Source of the DNA: Alteromonas sp. RKMC-009
Lineage (GTDB): Bacteria; Pseudomonadota; Gammaproteobacteria; Enterobacterales; Alteromonadaceae
Assembly: GCF_003584565.2 (NCBI RefSeq)
Contig: NZ_CP031010.1
Coordinates: 2,604,001-2,668,000 of the forward strand
Length of the DNA stretch: 64,000 nucleotides
Direction: 5' to 3'
Shown: positions 48,501 through 52,755 of the stretch, in pieces
Layout: each line of letters begins with the position of its first letter
How positions within the stretch are numbered: the first letter of the stretch is position 1
The notes under the pieces: generated by a model
Database searches by the model: none
The model's input: only the letters and a program-made list of their open reading frames with translations
Told to the model about the DNA's origin: nothing
Position numbers and translations under genes: made by a program

Positions 48501-49508
48501 ATGGCTCACCGCTTCAAACCATCTCAGACATTCAAAGATTGTGACGTTACTGATGAATCTGTTTACCGCGACCGCCGCAATGTGATCAAATCATTAGGCT
48601 TTGCCGGGTTGGGTGCGCTCATGTCACAACCTGCATCAGCCTTTGGCTGGTTCAGTGATGATGAAGAGAAAAAAGACACGTTCCGCACACGTCCTCTCGA
48701 ATTTTCCGTGAATGAAAACTTTAAACCGGATGAGGCGCTCACACCGGAAGCAAAAGTAACGTCCTACAATAATTTTTACGAATTCGGCACAGACAAAAGC
48801 GATCCTGTCAATAACGCGCAGCAATTCAGCACCGAACCCTGGACGTTGAAAGTAGACGGTCTGGTCGAAAAACCTCTCACTCTCAATTACGATGACTTGT
48901 TTAACCGTCTTGCACTGGAAGAGAGAATTTATCGTTTACGCTGTGTCGAGGCCTGGTCTATGGTTATTCCCTGGACGGGATTTCAGCTAAGTCACTTGCT
49001 TGCAGAGGCAAAACCATTATCGTCGGCTAAGTATGTGGCGTTCAAAACACTTTATGATCCTGAGCAGATGCCAGGCCAGCGAAGCCGCTTCACCGGAGGT
49101 GGCATTGACTACCCGTATGTAGAAGGTTTGCGTATTGACGAGGCGACGCACCCGCTGACTATGCTGGCAACCGGTGTCTATGGCAAAAGCCTGCCACCAC
49201 AAAACGGTGCGCCGGTAAGGCTCGTCGTGCCATGGAAGTACGGCTTCAAAAGTATCAAATCCATCGTCAGTATTACGTTAACAGACAAAGAGCCGCCAAC
49301 AACATGGAAACGTCTGGCCCACCGGGAGTACGGCTTCTATGCGAATGTAAACCCGGCGGTTGATCATCCCAGGTGGAGTCAGGCTTCTGAAAGACGGATC
49401 ACCAGTGGCGGCCTGTTTAACCAGAATCGCATCCCTACCCGACCGTTTAACGGATACGAAGAAGTTGCGTCACTGTATGCAGGAATGGATTTATCTAAGT
49501 TCTATTAG
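48501..49508 (+). CDS. msrP: Protein-methionine-sulfoxide reductase catalytic subunit MsrP
   Basis: 335 residues. Tat signal with twin arginine at 25-26 (DRRNVIKSL) and cleavage near ASA-F (47). The molybdopterin cofactor ligand is Cys148 in [13 protein letters not shown]. Periplasmic repair of oxidised methionines, taking electrons from the quinol pool through MsrQ. The gene ends 6 bases before msrQ. Length and motifs are fully typical. Confidence 0.96.
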
Positions 49509-49514
49509 GTTTCA

Positions 49515-50120
49515 ATGAACAAAACGTTATTTTCACGCCCTGTCAGGCTGACATCATTTCAGGTCAACAGTATTAAGTTTGTGATCCATGGCCTGGCATC
49601 GGGTTACCTGGCGTTGTTATTTTATGCCGGTATCAATGATCAGTTGGGTGCCGATCCGGTAAAAGCGCTCCTCCATTCCAGCGGGATTATGGCAGTGAAC
49701 CTGTTACTTTTTACCCTCGCGTTGTCACAGATGGCAAGGCGTCTGCCCTGCGCCGATATAGTAAAACTCAGAAGAATGGCAGGGGTTTATGTGTTTGTAT
49801 ACGCATTGGCGCATTTTCTTACCTGGCTGGCGTTTGAACTGCAGTTTGCCTGGCAGATGGCCGGCGCAGAGATTGTTGAAAGGCCTTATATACTGGTGGG
49901 TTTCGCCGCCTTATTGATCTTGCTTGCACTGACGGTTACGTCTCCGTTGTTCATCAGGAAAAAAATGAGACAGCGCTGGCAACCGCTTCACAACACCATA
50001 TGGGCGGCATTGTTTCTGGCCATTTTGCATTACACCTGGTCACTTAAAACAGGCTGGCAGGAGCCGGTATTTTACTGGCTTGTTGCCGGTATATTGTTTA
50101 GTTTGCGCTACGTCAGGTAG
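49515..50120 (+). CDS. msrQ: Heme-binding membrane subunit MsrQ
   Basis: 201 residues with five to six membrane helices. The conserved histidines for b-type heme are in HGLASGYLAL, YALAHFLTWLAFE, and PLHNTIWAALFLAILHYTWS. Delivers electrons from quinol or flavin to MsrP. Directly downstream of and cotranscribed with msrP. Confidence 0.94.
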   Translation: MNKTLFSRPVRLTSFQVNSIKFVIHGLASGYLALLFYAGINDQLGADPVKALLHSSGIMAVNLLLFTLALSQMARRLPCADIVKLRRMAGVYVFVYALAHFLTWLAFELQFAWQMAGAEIVERPYILVGFAALLILLALTVTSPLFIRKKMRQRWQPLHNTIWAALFLAILHYTWSLKTGWQEPVFYWLVAGILFSLRYVR

Positions 50121-50219: not shown

Positions 50220-50744
50220 TTACTCAGGACGAACCGCAGTCACTTCAATCTCTACCAGATAGTTAGGGTTCGCCAGACCGGCAACCTGTAAAGCTGACCG
50301 TGAAGGCAAGTTAGGCTGTTCATCTGTTCCGAAAAACTGAGTATAGCCACGCATAAAGCCGGCAAAGTCCATTTTCCCGTCCATTTCAGGATCCCCGACC
50401 AGAAATGCCTGCATCTTGATGACATCGCCCATAGTGAGCCCGAGACTTTTCAGGTTTTCGTCGATACGTTTCATGACGCTCACGGTTTGCATTTCTGTAT
50501 CACCGTAGGCCTCCCTGCTGCCTTCCGGTGCGTCAGGGTTGCTTACGCCGGGTACTGACCCGCTTAAAAATACAATGGTACTGGTTGCCGGCACTTCAGA
50601 GGCGCGCAGTATGGGGAAATCTGAACCAATTAACCCGTGACGTATAACAGTTTCTTTCGGGGTGGAGGTTGCTTCTGCTTCACTGCAACCTGTATTAGCA
50701 AATACAGCACTCAGTAGTAACGGGGCAACTAATAACTTTTTCAT
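50220..50744 (-). CDS. RidA-family lipoprotein (exported imine deaminase)
   Basis: 174 residues. Unlike ordinary cytosolic RidA (about 130 residues), it has a signal peptide with lipobox ANTGC (Cys20). The RidA domain follows: FLSGSVPG (59-66), active-site Arg149 in LPSRSALQV and the carboxylate in VEIEVTAV (Glu165/167). Catalytic residues for imine/enamine hydrolysis therefore look intact. It is the third gene after the Tat-exported amine oxidase and the cytochrome c, with 15-16 base gaps. Its likely job is hydrolysing the imine made by that oxidase in the periplasm; this is inference from context. Confidence 0.83.
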   Translation of the reverse strand: MKKLLVAPLLLSAVFANTGCSEAEATSTPKETVIRHGLIGSDFPILRASEVPATSTIVFLSGSVPGVSNPDAPEGSREAYGDTEMQTVSVMKRIDENLKSLGLTMGDVIKMQAFLVGDPEMDGKMDFAGFMRGYTQFFGTDEQPNLPSRSALQVAGLANPNYLVEIEVTAVRPE

Positions 50745-50759
50745 TTACGTTTTTCCTTT

Positions 50760-51155
50760 TTATCTTCGGGCAATGGTTTTAACGTCTTCTGCACTCACGG
50801 TGTCAGTAAAATGGTTACCAAAGTGTGTACGTGTATAATTCACCACTTCGGCGATTTGTTCATCGGATAAATATTGTTTTAATGCGGGCATACCACCCAT
50901 ACCGTTGCTGACCATAAATGTGACATAAGGGGCAGCACTCAGTTTGGGATTATTTGCCAGTGCAGGATATGCGCCTGCACCTTTGGCGCCCTGTGCATCA
51001 GGCATATGACATCCCTGACAGATAGCGTGATACAGCTCATCTCCGGACACTTCTTCAAAATTCTTACCCTGAGAAAAACCGGCATCATCAGTAGCAAATG
51101 CACAGCTGCTCAGAAGCAGTAAACCGGTACCGGCAACGTTAATTAATGATTTCAT
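50760..51155 (-). CDS. Periplasmic class I cytochrome c
   Basis: 131 residues. Sec signal (2-21), heme motif CQGCH (46-50), and Met ligand in SNGMGGMP (Met86 or Met89), then a C-terminal helix EQIAEVVNYTRTHFGNHF. One heme. Placed between the amine oxidase and RidA genes with 16- and 15-base gaps, it is probably the electron acceptor for the flavoenzyme, making that enzyme a dehydrogenase rather than a peroxide-forming oxidase. Confidence 0.9.
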   Translation of the reverse strand: MKSLINVAGTGLLLLSSCAFATDDAGFSQGKNFEEVSGDELYHAICQGCHMPDAQGAKGAGAYPALANNPKLSAAPYVTFMVSNGMGGMPALKQYLSDEQIAEVVNYTRTHFGNHFTDTVSAEDVKTIARR

Positions 51156-51171
51156 TGTTCTGTCCTCTCTT

Positions 51172-52755
51172 TCATGCAGCTGTTGTCAGTGCTTTGGCAT
51201 GTAACCGTTCAATAGCGTCCCGCGCCGAAGCTATGGCTCCTTCCTGCCATGCAGGCAGATTTGAAGCATGCTCACCGGCCAGTACCAGACGACCATCTAC
51301 CTGACACAGGTTTTCATAGTGTTCTTCCCGCTTTTCTTCAGTCCACACGCCGTAGCATCCTTGTGTCCAGGGCACTCTGTGCCAGCCAACGGCAATGCCG
51401 TTGTCGAACTCCTGCTCGTATTGCGGATGGATCTGTTTGCCGTACTGAACGGCTTTTTTGACTCTCTCCTCCGGTGGTAACGAGGTAAATTCGAAAGCGT
51501 TTGGCCCCCATACATAGCCGCCCAGCAACACCCCTTTACCTTTGTCACAAAACTTTGTACTGGGATAACTGATATTAGTAATGGGCAGATTGGTGTATGA
51601 AACACCGCCATAAATTGCATCGTCCTGCTCCCAGAAGCGGCGCTTAAATTCCAGGCCCACTTTCACTGACGCTGCATAAGGCACCGAGCGGATAGCGGTT
51701 TTCATTGCATTGCTTGCTGTTACTGGGATCTGTGAAAGAATCGAGAGAGGAATTGTGCACACACACCAGTCAGCCTGTGCCTCTTTGGCACTGCCCTGCT
51801 GGTCGTATTTCACTGTTACACCGGAGTCATTCTGATCAACAGATGTGACTCTGGCGTTGTATTCGATGAGATCGCCAACCCGTTTTTCAAAGGCTTTCGC
51901 AATACTGTCCATACCCCCGACAGGCTGAAAAATACTGCTCTGGAATTCGATATCCTGACCATTAACGATGTATTTCCACAGTTCAGACTGCAGTAAGGCA
52001 CTTTGGTCAAACAATTCGGAGGGTTCAGGTTTAGGTGACAATCCGCCACCCGGCGGTACTTTAAAGCCACGGCGTAAACTTGTCTCATAGGATTTTTTAT
52101 AAGCAGAAGATTTATCCAGTGCTCCCCAGTGACGAAGAGACTCAAAGAGCTTTTCTCTGTCTTCACCGCTTAATTCAGCATCAAGTGCATTCTGGTTAAT
52201 GACTTTACTCAATAATTCAGCAGCATATCCCTGGTAATCAGCCTGTACTTCGCGGTAACGCTGGGGTTTACCGTTGAACGCTTTAGTAGAATGCACGTAG
52301 GCGTTGTAGTTAACCTGAATAAAAGGCTCAATGGGTACGTTAAACTCATTAATGTAAGACATCACATAATGGTGATGATAGGGTACACGCCAGGGACCGG
52401 GATTGATGTAATTCCCCCCAGCGAACTGACATTGCTGGGTCGCACCACCCAGTTCTGTATAAGTATCGCCACCACGGAGCGTCCAGCAACGACCACCGGC
52501 TCTGCCATTAAACTCGAGGATCTTCACCTTGTAGCCGGCTTTGCGCAACTCATAAGCCGCTGTCATACCGGCAACACCGGCACCCAATACCAGTACAGAT
52601 GCCCCTTTCTTCGTACCGCTTAATTTCAATTTACCGGGCTTTGTAGATTCGGCCGCAAAACCCAGTGAACTCATGGCCTGATACATCGCGCCGGCGCCCG
52701 CGGTTTTACCAATCCACCCTAATAATGCACGGCGGCTCATACTATGACTGCTCAA
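51172..52755 (-). CDS. Tat-exported flavin amine oxidase/dehydrogenase
   Basis: 527 residues from a TTG at 52755, chosen for GGAGG seven bases upstream; the ATG at residue 6 is too far from it. Tat signal SRRALLGW (twin Arg 8-9). FAD motif GAGVAGMTAAYEL (58-70), GRAGGRCWTLRGG, and C-terminal PAWQEGAIASA (Trp503) place it with flavin monoamine oxidases/L-amino acid oxidases. Substrate unknown: an amine or amino acid. First gene of an operon with a cytochrome c and an exported RidA. Confidence 0.88.
   Translation of the reverse strand: MSSHSMSRRALLGWIGKTAGAGAMYQAMSSLGFAAESTKPGKLKLSGTKKGASVLVLGAGVAGMTAAYELRKAGYKVKILEFNGRAGGRCWTLRGGDTYTELGGATQQCQFAGGNYINPGPWRVPYHHHYVMSYINEFNVPIEPFIQVNYNAYVHSTKAFNGKPQRYREVQADYQGYAAELLSKVINQNALDAELSGEDREKLFESLRHWGALDKSSAYKKSYETSLRRGFKVPPGGGLSPKPEPSELFDQSALLQSELWKYIVNGQDIEFQSSIFQPVGGMDSIAKAFEKRVGDLIEYNARVTSVDQNDSGVTVKYDQQGSAKEAQADWCVCTIPLSILSQIPVTASNAMKTAIRSVPYAASVKVGLEFKRRFWEQDDAIYGGVSYTNLPITNISYPSTKFCDKGKGVLLGGYVWGPNAFEFTSLPPEERVKKAVQYGKQIHPQYEQEFDNGIAVGWHRVPWTQGCYGVWTEEKREEHYENLCQVDGRLVLAGEHASNLPAWQEGAIASARDAIERLHAKALTTAA

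Follow-up and report, generated by a model that had tools for sequence, protein, structure and literature searches.

A conserved gene trio predicted to encode an exported flavoenzyme, a cytochrome c and a Rid3-like protein in Alteromonas sp. RKMC-009

Described systems and the RKMC-009 cluster

The gene types examined here, for a flavoenzyme, a cytochrome c and a RidA-family protein encoded side by side in a 64,000-nucleotide stretch of Alteromonas sp. RKMC-009 (NZ_CP031010.1, positions 2,604,001 to 2,668,000; the window), also adjoin one another in the lao-cccA-ridA operon of Gluconacetobacter diazotrophicus (GDI2456-GDI2454; PMC5053998). There, too, the flavoenzyme carries a twin-arginine (Tat) leader, and the available text of that paper puts forward the same idea, that cytochrome c and RidA assist an L-amino acid oxidase, probably in the periplasm. 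The likeness is one of description; the operon was studied for auxin synthesis, and in the available text RidA export is not discussed. The same source tells of operon conservation in Caulobacter and Xanthomonas (PMC5053998, 2016). The trio and the assisting-role idea are already published, and the window holds a well-conserved case of a known kind of operon. We propose that this trio is probably a respiratory L-amino-acid-oxidation module outside the cytoplasm, with cytochrome c as electron acceptor and imine clearance by a Rid3-like protein.

NicA2/Pnao-CycN and other Tat amine dehydrogenases (PMC12224317) share with the window a Tat flavin amine oxidoreductase and a Sec cytochrome c in one operon. 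Those enzymes are the top NicA2 matches, whereas the window enzyme groups with L-amino acid oxidases, and the terms 'RidA' and 'L-amino acid' are absent from the paper's main text. The periplasmic LAO1 of Chlamydomonas, with LAO2/RIDA (PMC10805672), resembles the window in joining an extracytoplasmic L-amino acid oxidase to a RidA-type partner but is eukaryotic and peroxide-producing, and the available text mentions no cytochrome partner. RidA, and sometimes Rid3, clusters with flavin adenine dinucleotide (FAD) amine oxidases according to the available text of PMC4433059, and a 2017 paper offers a model with D-arginine dehydrogenase (PMC5619798, as far as its text was available). PMC9537276 was considered as a parallel and set aside as not relevant; its RidA protein, in the text available, has 127 amino acids and is placed in the cytoplasm. 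PMC12114110 and PMC10768146 were likewise set aside, since they do not bear on the trio.

The three genes lie on the minus strand (Table 1) in the order flavoenzyme-cytochrome-RidA, separated by 16 bases (flavoenzyme/cytochrome) and 15 bases (cytochrome/RidA), and this spacing suggests an operon of the lao-cccA-ridA type. Each of the three starts is preceded by a purine-rich, ribosome-site-like stretch, which for the flavoenzyme is AAGGAGGG, six bases 5' of its TTG start. Pfam assigns the products to Amino_oxidase (PF01593, 224 bits), Cytochrome_CBB3 (PF13442, 47.5 bits; also PF00034, 31.6 bits) and Ribonuc_L-PSP (PF01042, 57.7 bits). A promoter and terminator scan with a shuffled control found no site on the trio's strand; promoter-like sites numbered 1 (shuffle mean 4.3) and terminator-like sites 4 (shuffle mean 2.9).

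Leaders were called by hydropathy and motif heuristics rather than SignalP, and for RidA the script chose the most hydrophobic leader among the possible starts, which leans towards export. By these heuristics the flavoenzyme has a Tat leader (MSSHSMSRRALLGWIGKTAGAGAMYQAMSSLGFAA; the N-terminus begins MSSHSMSRRALL), the cytochrome a Sec-like leader and RidA a hydrophobic leader. Together with the short gaps, these calls bear out the preliminary description of the locus as three tightly spaced genes with export leaders.

Conservation and neighbours of the trio

We scanned species genomes for RidA with a 30-row alignment. The named loci are the best 80 of 518 confirmed matches, a set of best matches rather than an unbiased sample, and 79 were analysed (L116 lacked a readable start). 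Flavoenzyme, cytochrome and RidA occur in the window's order on one strand in 67 of the 79 (trio loci), which span Alpha-, Beta- and Gammaproteobacteria and Campylobacterota. Absence of the trio from relatives, an outcome that the preliminary description had said would speak against its reading, was therefore not what we found. All 73 loci having the flavoenzyme encode RR no more than 50 residues before its FAD domain; six loci lack this flavoenzyme.

In a 398-genome phylum sample, the flavoenzyme (E-value up to 1e-100) gave 21 matches in 18 genomes, its own included, with a cytochrome within 1.5 kb of 20 of them and RidA within 1.5 kb of 15, once in reversed order. Searches with RidA (E-value up to 1e-15) gave 26 matches in 25 of the 398 genomes, and 22 of them have a relative of the flavoenzyme no more than 1.5 kb away. 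The flavoenzyme is present in 13 of 59 genomes of the window's genus, and RidA (E-value up to 1e-20) in 5 of 148 genomes of the order, its own included; the trio is an accessory, patchy module. Protein distances correlate between partners (0.51, 0.48 and 0.45), above every one of 500 permutations.

The best solved relatives of the cytochrome are the cytochrome subunits of fructose and alcohol dehydrogenases. At five loci in the window's gene order the adjoining CXXCH frame is larger (202-258 residues), and the two of these cytochromes that were scanned contain two PF00034 stretches each and are di-haem. The flavoenzymes of these five loci are only 32-36% identical to that of the window, and the RidA leader is still present. 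Larger CXXCH proteins (frames of 510 and 488 amino acids) also stand beside a flavoenzyme and cytochrome at L184 and L185, where no adjoining RidA match was seen. At L183 (genome G155) a stretch of about 6 kb contains two modules of flavoenzyme and cytochrome, encoded on opposite strands; one of them has its RidA in reversed gene order, and another RidA-family gene is found nearby.

The gene nearest to the cluster varies: a census of the 80 loci returned mostly antisense shadow frames and lineage-specific neighbours. Seven Rhizobiales loci share a downstream gene family whose scanned member is an M20 peptidase, followed by a family-5 solute-binding-protein gene, and eleven Xanthomonadales loci share one whose scanned member is an aminotransferase (one representative of each family was scanned). 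These genes would agree with amino acids as the substrate.

Protein lineages, retained residues and leaders

Over nearly its full length (residues 47-522) the flavoenzyme is similar to 2jae, a structure named L-amino acid oxidase (306 bits); we take 2jae to be the Rhodococcus opacus enzyme. Among the best 60 of 104 matches, other L-amino acid oxidases, including snake and ancestral tetrapod enzymes, reach 109 to 158 bits, against at most 58.3 bits for monoamine or putrescine oxidases. Arg123 and Tyr414 are invariant (Table 1) and align with what is presumably the carboxylate-binding Arg/Tyr pair of L-amino acid oxidases, at chain positions 83 and 370 of 2jae; we assume these to be Arg84/Tyr371 in R. 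opacus numbering, for which we found no paper. On this similarity and this pair, sequence places the flavoenzyme in the L-amino-acid-oxidase lineage, and its most likely substrate is therefore an L-amino acid rather than any amine. The earlier suggestion of an 'amine or amino acid' substrate is thereby narrowed, in all likelihood, to L-amino acids. In the same genus, the flavoenzyme copy at L144 (80% identical) has four internal stop codons and is a decayed copy or an assembly error.

Close relatives named 'monoamine oxidase', 'flavin monoamine oxidase family protein' or 'tryptophan 2-monooxygenase' would fit a primary amine or polyamine as the substrate instead. We consider this very unlikely: the scores favour 2jae over the monoamine and putrescine oxidases, both carboxylate-binding positions are kept in all 67 trio loci, M20-peptidase-like and solute-binding genes or an aminotransferase-like gene lie downstream in Rhizobiales and Xanthomonadales, and lao of G. 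diazotrophicus acts in tryptophan metabolism (PMC5053998, available text).

The RidA-family protein has its best sequence and fold match in the Rid3 subfamily, with Arg and Glu retained. It scores 135 bits against PSPTO3006 (9bka) and 110 bits against PFL1385 (9bkc), other Rid structures reaching 32.3 bits or less, and its AlphaFold2 model (mean predicted local distance difference test, pLDDT, 90) has 9bka as top fold match, with a template-modelling (TM) score of 0.97 by target length. Because it scores only 39.3 bits against the archetypal RidA model TIGR00004, under the curated cut-off of 106.25, we do not class it as an archetypal RidA. The intact Arg and Glu of the preliminary description are present as Arg149, Glu165 and Glu167. 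Like the two glutamates (Table 1), Arg149 is invariant in the 30 aligned sequences and in the trio loci, and Arg149 and Glu165 align with Arg and Glu in four other Rid copies of the same genome. Ile45 is invariant in the 30 sequences (62 Ile, 2 Val and 3 gaps in the 67 trio loci); the alignment is gapped at this place, where Ile45 is compared with Tyr17, whose change to Ile is a Rid3 trait.

A hydrophobic RidA leader is found in 79 of 79 readable loci (lowest value 1.71 by the Kyte-Doolittle heuristic), and most relatives have plain Sec-like leaders; by leader, RidA export is clearly general in this best-matching set. Since the same genome also encodes a second leader-bearing RidA, calling a signal-bearing RidA unusual, as had been done, was an overstatement. 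The lipobox first ascribed to the window protein is not confirmed either: in ANTGC, Asn at -3 breaks the PROSITE-type pattern. Near relatives fit (ATTGC, ATAGC) or fail it, P0005 having Tyr for Cys, and the pattern occurs in 10 of the 79 RidA proteins (six from Alteromonadaceae or a gammaproteobacterial metagenome-assembled genome, two from Comamonas, one from Fulvimonas and one from Variovorax). Lipid attachment appears local and is uncertain. A lipoprotein RidA was rejected as a defining trait on this count and on the non-canonical motif of the window itself.

The second leader-bearing RidA-family protein (147 amino acids, L251:5854-6297) lies about 120 kb past the window end and is flanked by frames of 443 and 1193 amino acids on the other strand. 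The genome has four other Rid matches: for three of them the frame upstream encodes no leader, and the fourth is part of a longer frame. No flavoenzyme match or short CXXCH frame was found within 1.5 kb of the five non-trio Rid matches.

Convergent with the trio lies msrPQ (48501-50120, plus strand), a gene pair for a periplasmic methionine sulfoxide reductase (scores above cut-off with NCBIfam PRK05363 and PRK05419). A functional link between the two was rejected: msrP/msrQ matches (E-value up to 1e-10) were found at 0 of the 80 named loci, other Alteromonas included, within a reach of at most 6 kb on either side.

Table 1. Positions of the trio and of its leaders, motifs and retained residues in the 64,000-nucleotide window
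Feature	Positions	Strand	Basis
Predicted exported flavin amine oxidoreductase, 527 amino acids	51172..52755	-	TTG start; PF01593; best solved relative 2jae
Putative twin-arginine (Tat) leader, SRRALL, residues 1-36	52648..52755	-	read from sequence
Arg123 of flavoenzyme	52387..52389	-	aligned with chain position 83 of 2jae; Arg in 67/67 trio loci
Tyr414 of flavoenzyme	51514..51516	-	aligned with chain position 370 of 2jae; Tyr in 67/67 trio loci
Mono-haem cytochrome c with Sec-like leader, 131 amino acids	50760..51155	-	PF13442, PF00034
Haem-binding motif CQGCH, residues 46-50	51006..51020	-	sequence; CXXCH in 67/67 trio loci
Predicted exported RidA-family protein, Rid3-like, 174 amino acids	50220..50744	-	PF01042; closest to 9bka/9bkc
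RidA hydrophobic export leader, residues 1-30, AVFANTGC; possible non-canonical lipid-attachment Cys20 (50685-50687)	50655..50744	-	sequence and relatives
Arg149 of RidA	50298..50300	-	place of catalytic Arg105 of Salmonella RidA
Glu165 and Glu167 of RidA	50244..50252	-	invariant in 30 aligned sequences and 67/67 trio loci

Leader agreement, a second flavoenzyme family and the proposed pathway

We compared leaders at 32 RidA loci from genomes whose genus we took to be Pseudomonas (31 scan matches and G286 from the phylum sample), four of which gave no match to the trio-type flavoenzyme in the fetched stretch. Where RidA has no leader (12 loci), 3-5 of the 20 residues that follow the twin arginine in the flavoenzyme leader region are charged (12/12); where RidA has a leader (16 loci), 1-2 are (16/16). 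With this charge threshold, which was set after the data were seen, mixed leader states occur in 0 of the 28 pairs. On a quick tree, built from few columns of 120 RidA rows and with 52 of its 116 inner branches open, RidA export changes only twice; the leader agreement represents one or two events, and the tree does not tell gain from loss. The leaderless Pseudomonas relatives that are closest to PSPTO3006 in the sample follow a flavoenzyme whose leader is charged and probably broken, whereas the window's Rid3-like protein is exported and accompanied by a cytochrome. From sequence, PSPTO3006 itself would belong to the leaderless set.

Four of the six loci without the trio-type flavoenzyme are also from Pseudomonas (L108; L114, P. 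monteilii; L128, P. reidholzensis; L132, P. putida). At each, a RidA with a leader lies 35-79 bases downstream of a flavoenzyme with a Tat leader. L114 encodes an L-amino acid deaminase (838 bits to 5hxw; known structures also include 5fjm), with which the other three flavoenzymes share 89-95% identity. L-amino acid deaminase carries out membrane-bound respiratory oxidation of L-amino acids. The three deaminase-type enzymes that were scanned belong to PF01266 (DAO), a flavoenzyme family different from and unrelated to the PF01593 type of the window, and yet in these four genomes they precede the same kind of exported RidA. The deaminase-paired RidA proteins form one clade (Shimodaira-Hasegawa approximate likelihood-ratio test, SH-aLRT, 98). 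A flavoenzyme thus adjoins an exported Rid3-like protein at 77 of the 79 best-matching loci (73 amine oxidases, 4 L-amino acid deaminases).

The deaminase is confined to these four of the 80 named loci. A search of 312 class-wide genomes matched none, an empty answer that shows nothing. Two of 119 Pseudomonas genomes contain it: that of L108 has the adjoining RidA, and the other, with 9% contamination, has its only Rid3 match about 800 kb away. The literature consulted, which was mostly free of subscription and available in part, yielded no paper on RidA paired with L-amino acid deaminase. The remaining two loci without the trio-type flavoenzyme come from Dyella, with a GntR/aminotransferase-type gene upstream, and from Comamonas, where the two neighbour frames that were scanned gave no Pfam match.

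The leader agreement, the exchange of the cytochrome and the deaminase pairing support a coupling of RidA to extracytoplasmic imine production. Alternatively, RidA might not hydrolyse imines but serve the flavoenzyme as a structural partner or chaperone, in the manner of the M-beta subunit of the Chlamydomonas L-amino acid oxidase, a periplasmic enzyme with a non-catalytic RidA subunit (as told in the available text of PMC5053998). We regard this as quite improbable: the catalytic Arg is kept in all 67 trio loci, imine hydrolysis is documented for Rid3 proteins that share this Arg (PMC5619798, available text), and close RidA relatives pair with a PF01266 flavoenzyme, which is not expected of a specific subunit contact.

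Flavin amine oxidoreductases form an imine first. In the proposed module the Tat-exported flavoenzyme would take hydride from an L-amino acid, yielding a 2-imino acid; its reduced FAD would be reoxidised by the Sec-exported cytochrome c, which would feed the respiratory chain; and the exported Rid3-like protein would convert the imino acid by hydrolysis into keto acid and ammonia before it can react with anything else. What we observe is the gene content and order, the conservation, the retained residues and, by heuristic, the leaders. By analogy with described systems, imine hydrolysis by Rid3, the use of cytochrome c as acceptor and the need for the lao cluster in making keto acid from tryptophan may extend to the window; the amino acid used in RKMC-009 and the joint action of the three proteins in one compartment we only infer.

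The analogies come from three sources. Two Rid3 proteins, PSPTO3006 and PFL1385, reduced semicarbazone formation in vitro from imines made by snake L-amino acid oxidase for all five L-amino acids tabulated, and both also act on iminoarginine; rescue of a Salmonella ridA mutant did not follow Rid subfamily (PMC5619798, available text). In clades drawn from NicA2 matches, a Tat leader with an operonic Sec cytochrome c predicts cytochrome-c-using flavin amine dehydrogenases (PMC12224317, in the text available), and the window trio has both. In G. diazotrophicus, lao insertions abolish indole-3-acetate and leave indole-pyruvate low, and cytochrome c maturation mutants retain 5% of indole-3-acetate (PMC5053998, available text, the latter citing earlier work). 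Taken together, Rid3 imine hydrolysis, the Tat/cytochrome rule and the G. diazotrophicus mutants make a respiratory dehydrogenase with imine clearance the best reading. The pathway of the preliminary description, from amine or amino acid through imine to keto compound and ammonia, accords with it and with catalytic residues kept throughout the trio loci; its lipid anchor is uncertain, its substrate is most likely an L-amino acid and not any amine, and the pathway is largely published.

Several observations weigh against a respiratory module with dedicated imine clearance. Six of the 79 loci, all cyanobacterial (L062, L074, L083, L096, L110 and L122), have a flavoenzyme and an exported RidA with no adjoining cytochrome c match; no CXXCH frame lies within 250 bases of RidA in the 28 Pseudomonas pairs, the 16 exported ones included; and 6 of the 21 flavoenzyme loci of the phylum sample have no adjoining RidA. 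With RidA missing at these 6, and the cytochrome missing in cyanobacteria and Pseudomonas, the trio is not an obligate unit. The correlated partner distances can be explained by species history alone, and the two groups of Pseudomonas flavoenzyme leaders overlap in their best 10-residue hydropathy (1.28-1.55 versus 1.34-1.75). RidA could be dispensable if the imine hydrolyses spontaneously. For the flavoenzyme, AlphaFold2 gave a poor model (pLDDT 62.5, predicted TM score 0.56, 20 aligned sequences). The cytochrome rule comes from a part of the superfamily other than that of the window enzyme, and the G. diazotrophicus insertions cut all three transcripts, with no single-gene complementation in the available text (PMC5053998), so that these mutants do not tell the role of the cytochrome from that of RidA.

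Some of these observations would also suit an ordinary O2-using L-amino acid oxidase, releasing H2O2 outside the cytoplasm, for which the cytochrome is an incidental carrier or a peroxide scavenger. The closest solved relative, 2jae, is named an oxidase, and Lys365 is kept in all 67 trio loci, as we take it to be in oxidases of the family; relatives in cyanobacteria and some in Pseudomonas have no adjoining cytochrome. We nevertheless judge an O2-using enzyme unlikely, given the cytochrome beside 20 of 21 flavoenzyme matches, the different cytochrome c in the same place at five loci of the window's order, the Tat and operonic cytochrome rule for dehydrogenases in the NicA2-match clades (PMC12224317, available text) and the dependence of the G. 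diazotrophicus product on cytochrome c maturation (PMC5053998, available text).

To the published picture this analysis adds the leader agreement in Pseudomonas, the larger cytochromes at five loci and the pairing of deaminase with RidA. In the mostly subscription-free literature consulted we found no paper that describes exported Rid3 as a group. We tentatively suggest, as a possibility somewhat short of probable, that respiratory amino-acid oxidation has in the exported Rid3-like proteins a layer dedicated to clearing imines outside the cytoplasm, that two unrelated families of flavoenzymes (the L-amino-acid-oxidase type with cytochrome c, and L-amino acid deaminase) have recruited it, that it changes compartment with the flavoenzyme, and that this is the in vivo role of much of Rid3. 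An exported Rid3-like protein beside an imine-making flavoenzyme would give Rid3 a concrete, testable role, and imine damage control would be needed outside the cytoplasm too. The proposed pathway further predicts that many enzymes filed as monoamine or L-amino acid oxidases may be cytochrome-c dehydrogenases that belong to a lineage distinct from that of the nicotine enzymes.

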